From Herpetosiphon geysericola (lineage in GTDB: Bacteria > Chloroflexota > Chloroflexia > Chloroflexales > Herpetosiphonaceae): a DNA stretch of 64,000 bases. Position numbers and translations under genes: made by a program. The stretch is from positions 248,001 to 312,000 of the forward strand of contig NZ_LGKP01000022.1 in the NCBI RefSeq assembly GCF_001306135.1, in the 5' to 3' direction. The notes under the pieces were generated by a model. That model saw only the letters and a list, made by a program, of their open reading frames with translations, did no database searches and was not told where the DNA came from. Below, piece by piece: positions 1,787 to 49,708 of this stretch. The number at the start of each line of letters is the position of its first letter. Positions within the stretch are counted from its first letter, which is position 1.

Positions 1787-1869
1787 AAGCTACCTCTTTA
1801 TTGATAATGCAAAGATTAAGGCGCTAGATCGAGCCAGCGCCGCCGTCTATTGTACCGCAGGCTGCCGCA

Positions 1870-3990
1870 TTATTGTGCTAAAACGAGGGCAATCCGCTTG
1901 CGTTCTTGATCGATTGATTGAATGCTAACATCCAAAATATCGCCAACGCTCAAACTCAAGCCCCGCGGAATTTGCGAACGATGCAATAAGCCGTCGTGTT
2001 TGACCCCTAAATCGATGAATGCACCCCAATCGACGACATTGCGCACGGTGCCTTTGAGCTGCATGCCTGGCTGCAAATCTTCAAAGGCCAGCACATCGCT
2101 GCGCAAAATCGGCGCTGGCACATCCTCGCGTGGGTCGCGGCCAGGCCGAAGCAATTGATCGATAATATCGCTTAGGGTTGGCACGCCGGTGCCTAATTCT
2201 GCCGCAAGGCCATGCAACGGCTGATTCTTCAGATCTTCCAAGCGTTTGATCCGTTCGTTGCGGCCTGTTTTGGCGTTGATATTGAGCTTGGCTAGCAAAT
2301 TTCGTGCTACAGCATAGCTTTCTGGGTGAATGGCGCTGGCATCCAAAGCTTCATCGCCATCGCGAATGCGCAAGAAGCCTGCTGCTTGTTCAAAGGCTTT
2401 TGGCCCCAAGCCTTTGACTTTTTTGAGCGCGATGCGCGAACGAAATGGCCCATGTTCCTCGCGATGGCTGACGATTTGGGCCGAAAGTTTGGGGCCAATG
2501 CCTGCAACGTAGCGCAATAGCGCAGGCGAGGCGGTGTTGACATCAACGCCAACATTATTCACTGCGCTTTCAACCACCCCATCGAGCGCATTGCTCAGCG
2601 CCGTTTGATCAACATCGTGTTGATACATGCCCACGCCAATCGCTTTTGGCTCGATTTTAACCAACTCGGCGAGTGGGTCTTGCACGCGGCGGGCAATCGA
2701 AACCGCGCCGCGCAAACTCACATCAAGATCGGGCAATTCGTTGCGGGCAAGGGTGCTGGCGCTGTAGACGCTCGCTCCCGCTTCGCTAACAATCAAATAT
2801 TTGAGGCCAGGATTGTGGCGAATCACATCGGCGACCAATTGCTCGGTTTCACGCGAGGCTGTGCCATTGCCAATGGCGATTAAACTCACGGTGTAGCGTT
2901 TGATCAAGCCCTGTAATTCTTGAAACGCTCGTTCGCGGGCTGCCGCGCCGCTGTGGGGATAAATTGTGGCGGTGGTCAGCACATTGCCAGTTTGGCCAAT
3001 AATTGCCACTTTGCAGCCAGTGCGAAAGCCTGGGTCAAGCCCCAGCACGACGTTATTGGCAATTGGTGCTTGCAACAACAACGAATGCACGTTTTTGGCA
3101 AAAACGGTGATCGCGTGGCTTTCTGCTTGTTCAGTTAGGGCGCGGCGCACATCGCGCTCGATTGCTGGCAGCAGCAAGCGCTCAGCGCCATCGTGAACCG
3201 CCAACCGTAATTGCTCAGCCCAAGGTGAGCGTTGATCGAGCGGGAAATATTTGGCGGCAACATCAGCCCAATCGCGTTCGCTGACCTGAATTTTGAAGCG
3301 CAAAATATGTTCGGCTTCGCCGCGATTGAGCGCCAACACTTGGTAGGGCTTGAGCCGATTGGCGATGGCTTCGAATTGATAGTAAGTTTGATAGACGCCT
3401 TTGCTATCGTCTGCATCGGCGATTAACTCGCTACGCGCAACGCCCCAACGCAAAGCTCGTTCGCGGGTTTGGCGGCGCACTTCAGGATGCTCGCTTAGCT
3501 GCTCGGCCACAATATCGCGTGCTCCGGCCAAGGCATCTTCAATGCTCGCAACTTGGTCGTTGAGAAACTGGCGGGCAGTGGCCTCGATTGCATCGTTGGG
3601 CTGCATTTGAATTATCTCGGCCAAGCCTTCGAGGCCACGTTCGCGGGCGATACTGGCACGAGTGCGGCGTTTGGGCTTGAACGGTGCATACAAATCTTCG
3701 AGCGTCGTTTTATCGCTGGCTTCGGCCAAGGCTTGGGCAAGCGTATCAGTCAAGGTGCCTTGTTCGCGCAGGGCATTCAAAATCGCCTCGCGACGTTCAT
3801 CAAGCTCGCGCAAGCGGGCAATTTGGCTTTGGATGCTGCGCAATTGTTCTTCATCCAAGCCGCCAGTTTGCTCCTTGCGGTAGCGAGCAACAAACGGCAA
3901 GGTATTGCCTGCATCAAACAATTGAATTGCGGCGGTAACTTGGTCGGCACGCACCGTCAAGCTTTTGGCAATTAAATGAGCATAATCCAT
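1870..3990 (-). CDS. tex: Tex-family RNA-binding transcription accessory protein
   Basis: This is a 706-residue protein with the full Tex layout: an N-terminal helical region, a YqgF/RNase H-like domain (LDPGFRTGCK near residue 317), tandem helix-hairpin-helix motifs (VAGIGPKLSAQI near residue 495, then KVKGLGPKAFE), and a C-terminal S1 domain from about residue 634 (GTVRNVVDWGAFIDLG). Tex proteins bind nucleic acid and act with RNA polymerase or RNA decay. I chose the ATG of MDYAHLIAK; a TTG four codons upstream is in frame, but GGGAAC lies at a suitable distance only from the ATG. The gene is complete and of normal family length. Confidence 0.95.
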   Translation of the reverse strand: MDYAHLIAKSLTVRADQVTAAIQLFDAGNTLPFVARYRKEQTGGLDEEQLRSIQSQIARLRELDERREAILNALREQGTLTDTLAQALAEASDKTTLEDLYAPFKPKRRTRASIARERGLEGLAEIIQMQPNDAIEATARQFLNDQVASIEDALAGARDIVAEQLSEHPEVRRQTRERALRWGVARSELIADADDSKGVYQTYYQFEAIANRLKPYQVLALNRGEAEHILRFKIQVSERDWADVAAKYFPLDQRSPWAEQLRLAVHDGAERLLLPAIERDVRRALTEQAESHAITVFAKNVHSLLLQAPIANNVVLGLDPGFRTGCKVAIIGQTGNVLTTATIYPHSGAAARERAFQELQGLIKRYTVSLIAIGNGTASRETEQLVADVIRHNPGLKYLIVSEAGASVYSASTLARNELPDLDVSLRGAVSIARRVQDPLAELVKIEPKAIGVGMYQHDVDQTALSNALDGVVESAVNNVGVDVNTASPALLRYVAGIGPKLSAQIVSHREEHGPFRSRIALKKVKGLGPKAFEQAAGFLRIRDGDEALDASAIHPESYAVARNLLAKLNINAKTGRNERIKRLEDLKNQPLHGLAAELGTGVPTLSDIIDQLLRPGRDPREDVPAPILRSDVLAFEDLQPGMQLKGTVRNVVDWGAFIDLGVKHDGLLHRSQIPRGLSLSVGDILDVSIQSIDQERKRIALVLAQ

Positions 3991-45784: not shown

Positions 45785-46090
45785 TCAATGCAAGGACGAA
45801 GCGCGGAACCACGAAGGGCACGAAGCGCACGAAGGCTATTTTAGTCACAGATTCCACAGATTATTTTTGATTTCTGCACTTTATGCTCTCTGTTCTATTT
45901 AGGATCAAGACGTGGCAGCAGCACCAAGAATTTCTTTTGCAAGGCCGAAGTTGATCCACGAAGGGCACGAAGTACAGAACCGCGAATTCCATGAATAATT
46001 ATGTTTTAGCCACAGATTTCATAGATTATTTTTAATTTTTGACTTTTGCTTTCTGATTTGGTTTTGCCTTCATCCCTCATCCTTCATCCT
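45785..46090. repeat. Mosaic intergenic repeat island F
   Basis: The island holds CACGAAGGGCACGAAGCGCA, GTCACAGATTCCACAG, TATGCTCTCTGTTCTAT and CATCCCTCATCCTTCATCC. It ends just before the selenoprotein-gene promoter. Confidence 0.75.
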
Positions 46091-46099
46091 TCTTCTGAG

Positions 46100-46105
46100 T
46101 ATAAT
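46100..46105 (+). promoter_or_regulatory. -10 element before selenoprotein gene
   Basis: TATAAT sits 36 bp before the ATG, but no good -35 hexamer is visible at 17 bp. Confidence 0.45.
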
Positions 46106-46140
46106 TAAACCAATGGCTTATTCAATAGAGGAGGCTGCTG

Positions 46141-46386
46141 ATGCAGATCACCATTACCTTTTGCATGTATTGAAACTACACCCCGCGTGCTGTCAGTTTG
46201 GCAGCCCAACTGTTGGACATTCATCGCCAAGCGATTCAGCAACTGAGCCTCGTTCCCTCGAAGGGTGGTTGTTTTGAAGTTGAAGTTAATGGGCAATTGC
46301 TCTATAGCAAACTTCAGACCGAACGCCATGCCGAGGCGGGCGAAGTCGAGGCCTTGATCGCTGCCTATCGCGACCAACAAGCCTAA
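46141..46386 (+). CDS. Selenoprotein W-like (Rdx family) protein, in-frame TGA as Sec
   Basis: The frame from the ATG at 46141 is MQITITFCMYUNYTPRA and continues as VSLAAQLLDIHRQAIQQL and LVPSKGGCFEVEVNGQLLYSKL; it ends at 46386 for 81 residues. The tail is a strong match to the SelW/Rdx thioredoxin-fold family. The TGA (46171-46173) occupies the second position of the CxxC/CxxU redox motif, exactly where selenocysteine is expected. AGAGGAGG lies six bases before the ATG, so translation starts upstream of the TGA. A SECIS-like hairpin follows it. Standard calls would start at the TTG at 46198 or miss the gene. A nonsense mutation is the alternative, but the frame and ribosome site are intact. 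Confidence 0.8.
46171..46205 (+). promoter_or_regulatory. UGA codon with bacterial SECIS-like hairpin
   Basis: After the TGA (46171-46173) comes a 15-nt spacer, then GCTGTC (46189-46194), loop AGTTT and GGCAGC (46200-46205), a 6-bp stem with one G-U pair. The loop starts 22 nt after the TGA and has G at its second position, as described for bacterial SECIS elements. A competing stem CAGTT/AACTG exists in the same region. Confidence 0.6.
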
Positions 46387-46392
46387 ACCGCT

Positions 46393-46435
46393 GCTGCAAG
46401 CTCACTTGCGGCATGCAGCGGGCTTGCAGCTTTCA
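46393..46435 (+). terminator. Probable terminator after selenoprotein gene
   Basis: GCTGCAAGC and GCTTGCAGC arms with a 20-base loop are followed by TTTC. It overlaps the -35 of the next gene and would separate the two units. Confidence 0.55.
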
Positions 46436-46460
46436 CAGGGCCAAATCCGCATGCTATAAT
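46432..46460 (+). promoter_or_regulatory. Epimerase-operon promoter
   Basis: TTCACA and TATAAT are spaced by 17 bp, about 35 bp before the GTG start at 46494. Confidence 0.65.
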
Positions 46461-46493
46461 CGCAGCCACAGCATCCTAAGCAAGGAGTCTCCC

Positions 46494-47447
46494 GTGTTGG
46501 TTTTGATCACCGGTTCCAGTGGGCAGATTGGCACCAATTTGGCGCTACGCCTTCTCGCAGATGGCCATGAAGTGTTTGGAGTTGATCAACGGGTCAACAC
46601 GTGGACAAAAGCTTTTGAGTATGTGATTCAGGATTTAGGGGCACCCTACCGCGATTTCGAAGGCGGTATTGGCGGCGTGCCCTATCCCAAGCCCGATGTC
46701 GTGGTCCACTTGGCGGCCAATGCCAAAGTTCACGAATTGGTGACCTATCCGCACCGAGCGTTGGAAAATGTGATGACCACCTATAACGTATTGGAATACT
46801 GTCGCCATCAACAAGTGCCAATCATTTTTAGCTCATCACGTGAAGTCTATGGTGATATTCATCGCTACTTAACCGAAGAAGCCCAAGCCGACTTTGTATA
46901 TACCGAAAGTCCATATTCAGCCTCAAAAATCAGCGGCGAAGCATTTATCTATTCCTATGCCCGATGTTACAACCTGCCCTATTTGGTTTTTCGCTTTTCG
47001 AATGTCTATGGGCGCTACGATAACGACATCGAACGTATGGAACGGGTAATTCCCCTGTTCATTCGCCGCATTCGCGACGGCCAACCTGTGACCGTCTTTG
47101 GGCGTGAAAAAACCCTCGATTTCACCTACGTCGACGATTGTGTCGATGGGATTGTGCGCGGAATCGAGCGGATTGTCAGTGGCCACGTTGCCAATCAGAC
47201 CTTTAATTTAGCCTATGGCGAAGGCAATACCCTGGTTCGTATGGCCGAATTGATCGCCGAGGCGTTGCAAATTGAAGCAACGATTAACGTGCAACCGTCA
47301 AAACTCGCTGGTGAAGTCACCTACTATGTGGCCAACATCGGGCGAGCACGCCAACTCTTGGGTTACACGCCCCAAGTTGCTTTAGCCGAAGGCTTACGGC
47401 GAGCTGTCGCGTGGAACATTGCGTGGGATGAGGAACAGCGGCGATGA
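46494..47447 (+). CDS. NAD-dependent sugar epimerase/dehydratase (extended SDR)
   Basis: The 317-residue extended short-chain dehydrogenase has the Rossmann GSSGQIG near residue 8 and the catalytic YSASK (about 140-145) with a Ser/Tyr environment of sugar-nucleotide epimerases. It would act on a UDP-, dTDP- or GDP-sugar; the substrate cannot be read. The start is GTG, preceded by AAGGAG. The last codons overlap the histidine kinase start by 4 bp. Confidence 0.9.
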   Translation: MLVLITGSSGQIGTNLALRLLADGHEVFGVDQRVNTWTKAFEYVIQDLGAPYRDFEGGIGGVPYPKPDVVVHLAANAKVHELVTYPHRALENVMTTYNVLEYCRHQQVPIIFSSSREVYGDIHRYLTEEAQADFVYTESPYSASKISGEAFIYSYARCYNLPYLVFRFSNVYGRYDNDIERMERVIPLFIRRIRDGQPVTVFGREKTLDFTYVDDCVDGIVRGIERIVSGHVANQTFNLAYGEGNTLVRMAELIAEALQIEATINVQPSKLAGEVTYYVANIGRARQLLGYTPQVALAEGLRRAVAWNIAWDEEQRR

Positions 47448-49708
47448 CAGAACGATCACGGCAACGCGGCCATCGACAGCTGCAAACGCTGGCTAGCAAA
47501 CGGATTCAAACTCGGCTTTTAGCGCTTTCACGGATCATGAACGATATTATGAATGTTGATGATCCTGCGCGCTTGATCACCGCCGCTAGTGCTCAATTGC
47601 GCCACGTTTTAGCTGTCGATGCGATTGCAGTGTGGTTTTATAGTCCTACTTCACATCGTTACCTGCTAAGCCACTTCAATAATGCCAGCCACGAGGATTT
47701 TAGTGCTGATGATCGCGAGGCGCTCAGTGCCTTGCAAGTGCGCAGCGGCGAGGCGCTGGCTGGGCGCGTCATCAGCGAAGGCCATGCGATTACCGCAAGC
47801 AACGTCGATGAATATCGGGCCATGTTTGGGGCGTTGGGTCGCCGCCGCGAGGCGCTTTTCAATCGTTGGCGCGCCTTATTGCCCATTTCGTTTCAAGTAA
47901 CTGCGTTTACCTTGGGTGGCAATGGGCGGCCCAGCGGCGTAATTGAGTTTTTTTGTAGCAAACCCAGCCTCAACGCCAATTCGGCTGCTTGGTTGCAACC
48001 AACCCTCGATCAACTGGGTTCGTTGTTGCAGTTGGTGCGCCAACAGGCCGATGCCCGTGGCCAACGCCGCCGCTTGGCTGCACTCGATGCAGTTGTCACT
48101 GCAATCAGCACCTCATCCGATTTGCCCGACTTGCTGAATGTGGCTTTGTTGGTGGTGATTGAGGTCGTCAGCGCCAATGGAGGAGCAATTTGTTTGGCCT
48201 CGCCTGGTGGCCGCAGCATGTCGTTGGCCGCTCAACACCAACTTCCGCCGCGTGAGGCGCTGCTGCTTGGTTCGAGCCAAGCCAATAGCGTGCTCGAAGA
48301 TGTAGTCTATTACGGCCAGCCAACCTTGCGACCAGTCATCAGCACCAGCGATCTTGGCGAAGATATTATGGGGCGGGCGGCAATGCCACTCTTGGCAGGC
48401 GGCACAATCGTCGGCGTTTTGGTGTTGTATGGCAATTACCAAACCTTGGCCACCAACATCGATTGGCCCTCGCTGGTTTCAATGGGTTCGCAAATTGGGA
48501 TTGCAATTGCCAATACCCGTTTATATGAAGAAAGCCAGCGCGAACGCCAACGACTTGGCACGGTGATCGAATCAATTGCCGATGGCGTGGCGATTTGTAA
48601 TGGGATTGGCGAGTTGATTTTGGCCAACGAAACTGCCGCCGGTTTGTTGGAAATTTCGATTTTGCCAACCTTGGCGACGAGCAGCGAAGCAGGCGCACGT
48701 TATCTCGATGGCAGTTTTGTTGAAGCCGATATGTTGCCGTTTGCCCGCGCCTTGGCTGGCGAAGTCTTTCGCGATTATCGTTTGATTGTGCCTGGTAGCC
48801 AAGATCAAGATGTGGTGCTGAGCTTTAGTGGTGCGCCCTTGCGCCGTTCAGTATTAATTGATAGTGGCGATACTTCGTTTGATGGCGCGGTGATTGTGTT
48901 TCGAGATATTACCGAGCAACGCCGTTTGGAAGAAGCCAAAGATGAGTTTTTGGCGGTTGCTGCCCACGAGTTACGCTCGCCATTGGCCGCAATCAAAGGC
49001 TATAGCGATTTACTGCTGCGCCGCGAGTTGAAGCAAGCCACTGAAGGCCGCGATTTACGCGGCTTTATTACGCTTAGCCAGCAAGTTAATATTATGGTGC
49101 AATTGGTCGATAACTTGCTTGATGTGTCGCGAATTGATGCAGAGCGCTATACGATTCAGCTTGATGCTGTTGATTTGGGTATTTTGCTTGATTCAGTTGT
49201 GAACCAAGCTCGTCAAACAGCCAACCATCATACCCTGCACTTTGAGCAACTCAATCACAGCGTTGTGTATGGCGATTCGCTGAAATTGCGCCAAGTTGCC
49301 ACCAACTTTTTGACCAACGCCATTCGCTATAGCCCACAACAAACCCAAATTTGGGTGCAGGTGTTTAGCGATGAACATTTTGGCTATGTGCAAGTTGATG
49401 ATCAAGGGCCAGGCATTCCCCAAGCCCAACGCGAACGTTTGTTTGAACGCTACTACAGAGTGCCGGGGATTCGGCGCACTGGCTCAAGCACCGAAGGCTT
49501 AGGTTTAGGCTTGTATTTATGTCGCGAAATTATTACACTGCACAATGGGCGGATTTGGGTTGATAGCGCACCGAGCGGCGGCGCACGCTTCTGCATCGCC
49601 ATCCCGCGCTATATTCCTGAAAAACATGAAACCAACACCACCCAAACCACCCTCGATCTCGATGCATTTTTATTCTCGCCCCAACCAGGCCGGAGGAATG
49701 ATGAATAG
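47444..49708 (+). CDS. GAF-GAF-PAS sensor histidine kinase
   Basis: The 754-residue soluble kinase has two GAF domains (about 40-195 and 210-360), a PAS domain (about 370-480), a HisKA domain with H508 (AAHELRSPLAAIKGY) and an HATPase domain with ATNFLTNAIRYSP (N box) and GLGLGLYLCREI (G2). GAF domains suggest small-molecule or light sensing. It overlaps the epimerase gene by 4 bp and the cyclic-nucleotide-binding gene by 8 bp, so all three are translationally coupled. No receiver is encoded next to it. Confidence 0.92.
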   Translation: MTERSRQRGHRQLQTLASKRIQTRLLALSRIMNDIMNVDDPARLITAASAQLRHVLAVDAIAVWFYSPTSHRYLLSHFNNASHEDFSADDREALSALQVRSGEALAGRVISEGHAITASNVDEYRAMFGALGRRREALFNRWRALLPISFQVTAFTLGGNGRPSGVIEFFCSKPSLNANSAAWLQPTLDQLGSLLQLVRQQADARGQRRRLAALDAVVTAISTSSDLPDLLNVALLVVIEVVSANGGAICLASPGGRSMSLAAQHQLPPREALLLGSSQANSVLEDVVYYGQPTLRPVISTSDLGEDIMGRAAMPLLAGGTIVGVLVLYGNYQTLATNIDWPSLVSMGSQIGIAIANTRLYEESQRERQRLGTVIESIADGVAICNGIGELILANETAAGLLEISILPTLATSSEAGARYLDGSFVEADMLPFARALAGEVFRDYRLIVPGSQDQDVVLSFSGAPLRRSVLIDSGDTSFDGAVIVFRDITEQRRLEEAKDEFLAVAAHELRSPLAAIKGYSDLLLRRELKQATEGRDLRGFITLSQQVNIMVQLVDNLLDVSRIDAERYTIQLDAVDLGILLDSVVNQARQTANHHTLHFEQLNHSVVYGDSLKLRQVATNFLTNAIRYSPQQTQIWVQVFSDEHFGYVQVDDQGPGIPQAQRERLFERYYRVPGIRRTGSSTEGLGLGLYLCREIITLHNGRIWVDSAPSGGARFCIAIPRYIPEKHETNTTQTTLDLDAFLFSPQPGRRNDE

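Follow-up and report, generated by a model that had tools for sequence, protein, structure and literature searches.

The window, by which we mean the whole stretch of 64,000 nucleotides from Herpetosiphon geysericola that was analysed, contains a short selW-like reading frame that is interrupted by a single in-frame TGA and carries a small hairpin shortly behind this codon (Table 1). The host is a gliding predatory bacterium of the phylum whose present name is Chloroflexota. Read directly, the frame is open from its ATG through the TGA to a TAA stop at 46384-46386, and the ribosome-binding site AGAGGAGG stands six bases before the ATG, both as described in the first-pass annotation of this DNA. 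With the TGA translated as U, the product reads MQITITFCMYUNYTPRAVSLAAQLLDIHRQAIQQLSLVPSKGGCFEVEVNGQLLYSKLQTERHAEAGEVEALIAAYRDQQA. The TGA had been placed at the second redox position of the motif, and this assignment is exact: the motif is C8-M-Y-U11, homologues align at the position of the TGA with Cys, and an alignment of 12 rows shows nothing but Cys or Sec in either redox column. The strong Rdx/SelW match that had been claimed from the letters alone was likewise recovered with profiles. The Pfam profile PF10262 (Rdx) matches across the TGA (E=1e-17, 64.5 bits against a cut-off of 22.6, positions 1-72 of 74) and the NCBIfam profile TIGR02174 (CXXU_selWTH) scores 55.1 bits against a cut-off of 34.2. 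Judged by these matches, the gene encodes a protein of the Rdx/SelW family, related to animal selenoprotein W, and a whole-genome Rdx search returned it as the single match in its own genome. A thioredoxin-like fold is a trait of this family. A gene caller that stops at every TGA would miss such a gene or cut it.

Table 1. Features at the selW-like locus, in coordinates of the window.
Feature	Position	Strand	Basis
Possible -10 box, TATAAT	46100..46105	+	Upstream alignment
Ribosome-binding site	46127..46134	+	Direct read; 6 nt before ATG
Predicted selW-like selenoprotein gene, 81 residues, Sec as residue 11	46141..46386	+	Pfam Rdx, TIGR02174
CMYU redox motif codons	46162..46173	+	Translation; aligned with CxxC of 2fa8, 3dex and 2p0g
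In-frame TGA, taken as selenocysteine (second redox residue of the CxxU motif)	46171..46173	+	Direct read; conservation
Putative SECIS hairpin of the bacterial type (stem of 6 bp, loop AGTTT)	46189..46205	+	Covariation, position, SECIS rules

The TATAAT upstream of selW is also found in all four other genomes of the genus that were compared over the upstream region, and might serve as a -10 box; a promoter scan of the + strand did not call it. Further upstream, the window contains diverged repeats at 45806-46041, with units of the type CCACGAAGGGCACGAAG, including a repeat of 38 nt, the two copies of which, at 45839 and 46004, are 87% alike.

Selenocysteine machinery in the host and its family

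The first-pass annotation had named selA, selB, selC and selD as the genes to look for in the same genome, and all four are present with scores over their cut-offs: SelB with 320.3 bits (cut-off 242.25), SelA with 535.2 bits (267.9), SelD with 376 bits (125) and tRNA-Sec with 62 bits against a gathering score of 47. ARAGORN, which was run on 14 loci, calls the latter as tRNA-SeC with the anticodon TCA (UCA). In 14 control genomes, the same searches exceeded the cut-off twice for SelB (E. coli and M. jannaschii), once for SelA (E. coli), twice for SelD and five times for tRNA-Sec, and the tRNA-Sec model is hence the least specific of the four. Among the nine genomes of the family, SelB and SelD are over the cut-off in all nine, tRNA-Sec in eight and SelA in seven, and the two genomes without a SelA match are 75 and 76% complete. 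The selD gene itself contains one in-frame TGA, in the host as well as in the other members of the family (9/9), in the context SCAG-TGA in seven and ACAG-TGA in two of the nine loci; in the host, a hairpin with the loop AGGT can be seen by eye after this TGA. One family genome, G008, is rated 100% complete and contains a TGA-type selW, selA, selB and a TGA-type selD. Here, none of the 150 tRNA-Sec candidates that were scored, out of 696, was over the cut-off, and a BLAST search that used a tRNA-Sec from a different genus gave no hit; a candidate may have been overlooked, or the assembly may have a gap.

With regard to its location, tRNA-Sec precedes one of the EF-Tu genes in 6/6 genomes of the genus, at a distance of approximately 0.3 kb from the EF-Tu match. 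At locus L015, the tRNA occupies positions 1501-1597 and the EF-Tu frame 1811-3067; the arrangement is likewise found in G002-G006, although in G004 and G006 the contig ends within the EF-Tu gene. A further copy of EF-Tu, in G000 (L051), is preceded by tRNA-Tyr and tRNA-Thr.

Besides selW and selD, two selenoprotein families were examined in the host genome, Fdh-alpha and AhpC-TSA, which gave 8 and 13 matched stretches, respectively, none of them with an in-frame stop. A selenouridine synthase (TIGR03167), which would otherwise account for the presence of SelD, was not found in this genome. One might speculate that SelW is the only selenoprotein of Herpetosiphon besides SelD, and that the lineage retains its entire Sec system for the sake of this one 81-residue protein, an idea that we put forward tentatively and hold to be rather doubtful. 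If it were correct, deletion of selB or selW would directly test the role of a bacterial SelW protein and the reason for which the Sec system is retained.

The TGA codon and the downstream hairpin in related genomes

A selW gene was found in eight of the nine family genomes, and the one without a match, G001, is 75% complete. All eight genes carry the TGA; six belong to the same genus and two to further genera. In seven of these genomes the TGA was reported by the profile search, with no other stop flagged in the seven rows, and in G004, whose contig ends four bases before the TGA, it was read directly. G008 contains a second selW copy of the Cys form besides its TGA copy. Within the genus, 28 of the 81 selW codons vary, and none of these lies between codons 9 and 25, the stretch that covers the TGA and the hairpin; codons 2, 6 and 8 vary silently, and G004 contributes to this comparison only from codon 10 on. 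To look beyond the family, we collected 39 loci from the phylum, namely nine from the family (L001-L009) and the 30 best-scoring matches in the phylum (L060-L089). At the Sec position, 31 of them have TGA and the other eight a Cys codon, in agreement with the expectation of the first-pass annotation that homologues should have Cys or Sec here; the selenocysteine reading is not refuted by any of these sequences.

The hairpin had been described as starting 15 nt after the TGA, with a 6-bp stem and, 22 nt after the TGA, a 5-base loop that has a G in second position, and its coordinates agree: GCTGTC (46189-46194) and GGCAGC (46200-46205) enclose AGTTT (46195-46199), and, counted from the first base that follows the TGA, the G of the loop is 22 nt further on. 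An A-U pair can shrink the loop, so that the structure is either a 7-bp stem with a 3-nt loop 22 nt after the TGA or a 6-bp stem with a 5-nt loop 21 nt after it. With -7.8 kcal/mol, the hairpin falls within all four rules for bacterial SECIS elements as they are set out in a figure legend of PMC13188914 (a loop of 3-9 nt with a G in its first two positions, a distance of 16-37 nt from the UGA, a stem of 4-16 bp and an energy of <= -7.5 kcal/mol). On its own, such a hairpin is nevertheless weak evidence, since, among the 59 TGAs of the window that come after an ATG and are followed by 60 or more open codons, four have a hairpin of 6 bp with a G early in the loop, and since the fold of the 61-nt region is not more stable than that of shuffled sequences (z=+0.42). 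Energy also separates Sec from Cys copies poorly: under the strict published rule, applied to isolated perfect stems, 12/31 Sec copies pass compared with 17/88 Cys copies that pass somewhere in the allowed range, and with the loop held at 20-23 nt after the codon the numbers are 10/31 and 4/88. Similarly, the G at loop position 2 is present in 26/26 Sec sequences and in 84/88 Cys sequences and is thus not diagnostic here. We therefore dropped hairpin energy as evidence, and the argument rests on position-specific pairing rather than on stability.

For this, we scored five pairs of the stem, at a constant spacing from the codon, in 119 loci, which comprise the 39 phylum loci and 80 named Cys loci and yield 26 distinct Sec sequences and 88 Cys sequences. 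The 80 named loci are the best 80 of 111 stretches found with a pattern that required Cys codons; they are Cys by construction and say nothing about the frequency of TGA. The control was a shuffling of synonymous codons over 5000 rounds, which is blind to kinship. The 26 Sec sequences form 123 of their 130 possible stem pairs, compared with a mean of 96.5 (sd 3.6) and a maximum of 110 among the shuffles, and none of the 5000 rounds of this kinship-blind control reached 123. Complete stems are found in 21/26 Sec sequences, whereas the shuffles gave a mean of 4.24 and a maximum of 13 (n=5000). When the stem was slid by one to three or by six bases, only 20 to 77 of the 130 pairs formed. Both sides of the stem pairs vary among 25 distinct Sec sequences, with C-G, T-A and G-C occurring at one and the same pair, and in the alignment of the two other family genera a T-A pair of the stem is replaced by C-G, both sides having changed. 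No excess of pairing was seen in the 88 Cys homologues (205/440 pairs compared with 199.3, a number reached by 1109 of 5000 shuffles) or in the eight Cys sequences from the same phylum (15/40 compared with 17.3). Two loci, L064 and L065, are off the fixed register; a stem of 6 bp around a loop of 6 nt, with its start shifted two bases towards the codon, is possible in both.

These results bear on what the TGA is. Because it is the sole departure from an ordinary open frame, the sequence could represent a premature-stop pseudogene, or a sequencing error in an ordinary Cys-type SelW gene. However, the same TGA is present in 6/6 assemblies of the genus and in two further genera of the family, it stands at exactly the same codon in 31/39 phylum loci, no other stop was flagged in the seven family rows, the hairpin covaries and the genome contains the genes of the Sec machinery. 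The conservation of the TGA, the family match that extends across it and the covariation of the stem, all far beyond chance, make a pseudogene or a chance stop very unlikely. Alternatively, the TGA could be a real stop, with a product that starts behind it and would be an Rdx protein shortened at its N-terminus and lacking the redox motif; software that closes every gene at TGA could report this part alone. We regard this as hardly more probable than a pseudogene, as the conserved beginning of the protein and the Cys of the CxxU motif are encoded ahead of the TGA, the ribosome-binding site stands before the upstream ATG, and the excess of stem pairs is confined to the TGA copies. Lastly, the fact that other copies have Cys at this codon might suggest that the TGA is read through as another amino acid, such as Trp or Cys. 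Of the alternatives this one seems to us the least credible, given that selA, selB, selD and a tRNA-Sec with the anticodon UCA are present in the genome and that a stem of the SECIS type follows the codon.

We thus consider it almost certain, on the grounds of sequence comparison, that the gene encodes a selenocysteine-containing redox protein of the SelW/Rdx family, with Sec insertion pieced together from the individual components. Decoding of UGA by SelB and Sec-tRNA, with a stem-loop as the tether, is an established route in bacteria, as outlined in PMC1794560. In the host, SelA would make Sec on the tRNA from the selenophosphate supplied by SelD, which itself appears to be TGA-encoded here. 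A ribosome that arrives at the selW TGA would be served by SelB carrying Sec-tRNA(UCA), and SelB would be tethered by the stem-loop 15 nt downstream of the TGA, the loop of which would present G-U. By analogy with other members of the family, the CxxU pair of the folded protein may act as a reversible selenylsulfide/thiol switch, and SelW would then most likely reduce an oxidised thiol or peroxide partner.

SelW in the phylum and comparison with known systems

An Rdx match with E<=1e-6 was obtained in 186 of 400 sampled genomes of the phylum. Among the 150 best-scoring match rows, which do not include rows from the host genus, 96 have one TGA and 54 have none. Counted by genome, and among the matches listed (n=138), 94 genomes have at least one TGA copy, seven of which also have a stop-free copy, and 44 have stop-free copies only. 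SelB (E<=1e-70) was found in 91/94 of the TGA genomes compared with 31/44 of the stop-free-only genomes among these listed matches (Fisher p=2e-5, a test that is blind to kinship), and the three TGA genomes without a selB match are 77, 83 and 89% complete. This pattern fits with a use of Sec that is restricted to genomes possessing the machinery, and with Cys forms occurring in genomes with and without it.

The surroundings of the gene were considered separately. Eight family loci were compared, namely the window (46413-49708) and L002-L008. In seven of them, the genes behind selW are an NAD-dependent epimerase and, after it, a GAF histidine kinase. In the eighth, L008 of G004, the end of selW is kept and a different long frame follows within 1.5 kb, indicating that the neighbourhood has been rearranged there. 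The interval between selW and the epimerase, 46387-46460 in the window, folds into a stem-loop, which was not called by a terminator scan, and after the stem-loop contains a promoter match (TTCACA-17-TATAAT, 11/12); due to these two elements, selW and the epimerase may be separate transcription units. One other family of the class, f5, has a related gene behind selW, with a frame start approximately 0.2-0.9 kb on, in 7/7 of the TGA loci fetched (L063, L068, L069, L071, L072, L074 and L079). At L069 this neighbour is ThiI (Pfam 223 bits), and SelW may be connected with the transfer of sulfur to tRNA. Across the phylum, the gene neighbourhood was discarded as a clue to function, as each of the 14 largest clusters leaves out at least one of the 31 TGA loci.

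Several open-access sources were consulted for earlier descriptions of this gene. The genome paper on H. aurantiacus 114-95T (PMC3368417), which places the strain in the Chloroflexi, contains the word start 'selen' a single time, in the name of an author in its references, and Herpetosiphon has no match (0) in the main text of PMC1794560. Neither Chloroflex nor Herpetosiphon is mentioned in PMC12013277, PMC5330540, PMC4561486 and PMC1914089, and the terms 'SelW' and 'Chloroflex' do not occur in the 2026 review PMC13188914.

Against NCBIfam NF041051 (SelTWH_Campy), a model of SelT/SelW/SelH family (seleno)proteins, the window product scores 79 bits with a match along almost the full length, which is under the equivalog cut-off of 88 bits and places it outside the equivalog; of four relatives from the phylum, three with Sec and one with Cys, only L064 passes, with 89 bits. 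The Rdx structures 2fa8 (Atu0228), 3dex (SAV_2001) and 2p0g are members of the same family in which the motif aligns at the same position, as CxxC compared with CxxU in the window product. Selenoprotein W (2npb) also belongs to this family, with a profile match of E=1.5e-07, and was not matched by a single-sequence search at E<=0.001. SelW-like selenoproteins of bacteria had been described by 2006, when PMC1794560 gave a count of 10 for SelW-like in its table and listed three selenoproteins of three families for the Chloroflexi. In marine samples, SelW-like proteins and SelD were the most widespread selenoproteins according to the abstract of a 2008 report (PMC2398784). As far as these texts describe them, the bacterial SelW-like selenoproteins share with the window gene the SelW/Rdx family, Sec at the CxxU motif and a SECIS element just after the UGA. 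Since proteins of this kind were already known, the window gene adds to a known type. In comparison with the 2006 count, what is added here is the spread of predicted Sec-encoding SelW in the Chloroflexota, with TGA forms in 94 of 138 phylum genomes among the matches listed, and the observation that genomes with Cys forms only are more often without selB.
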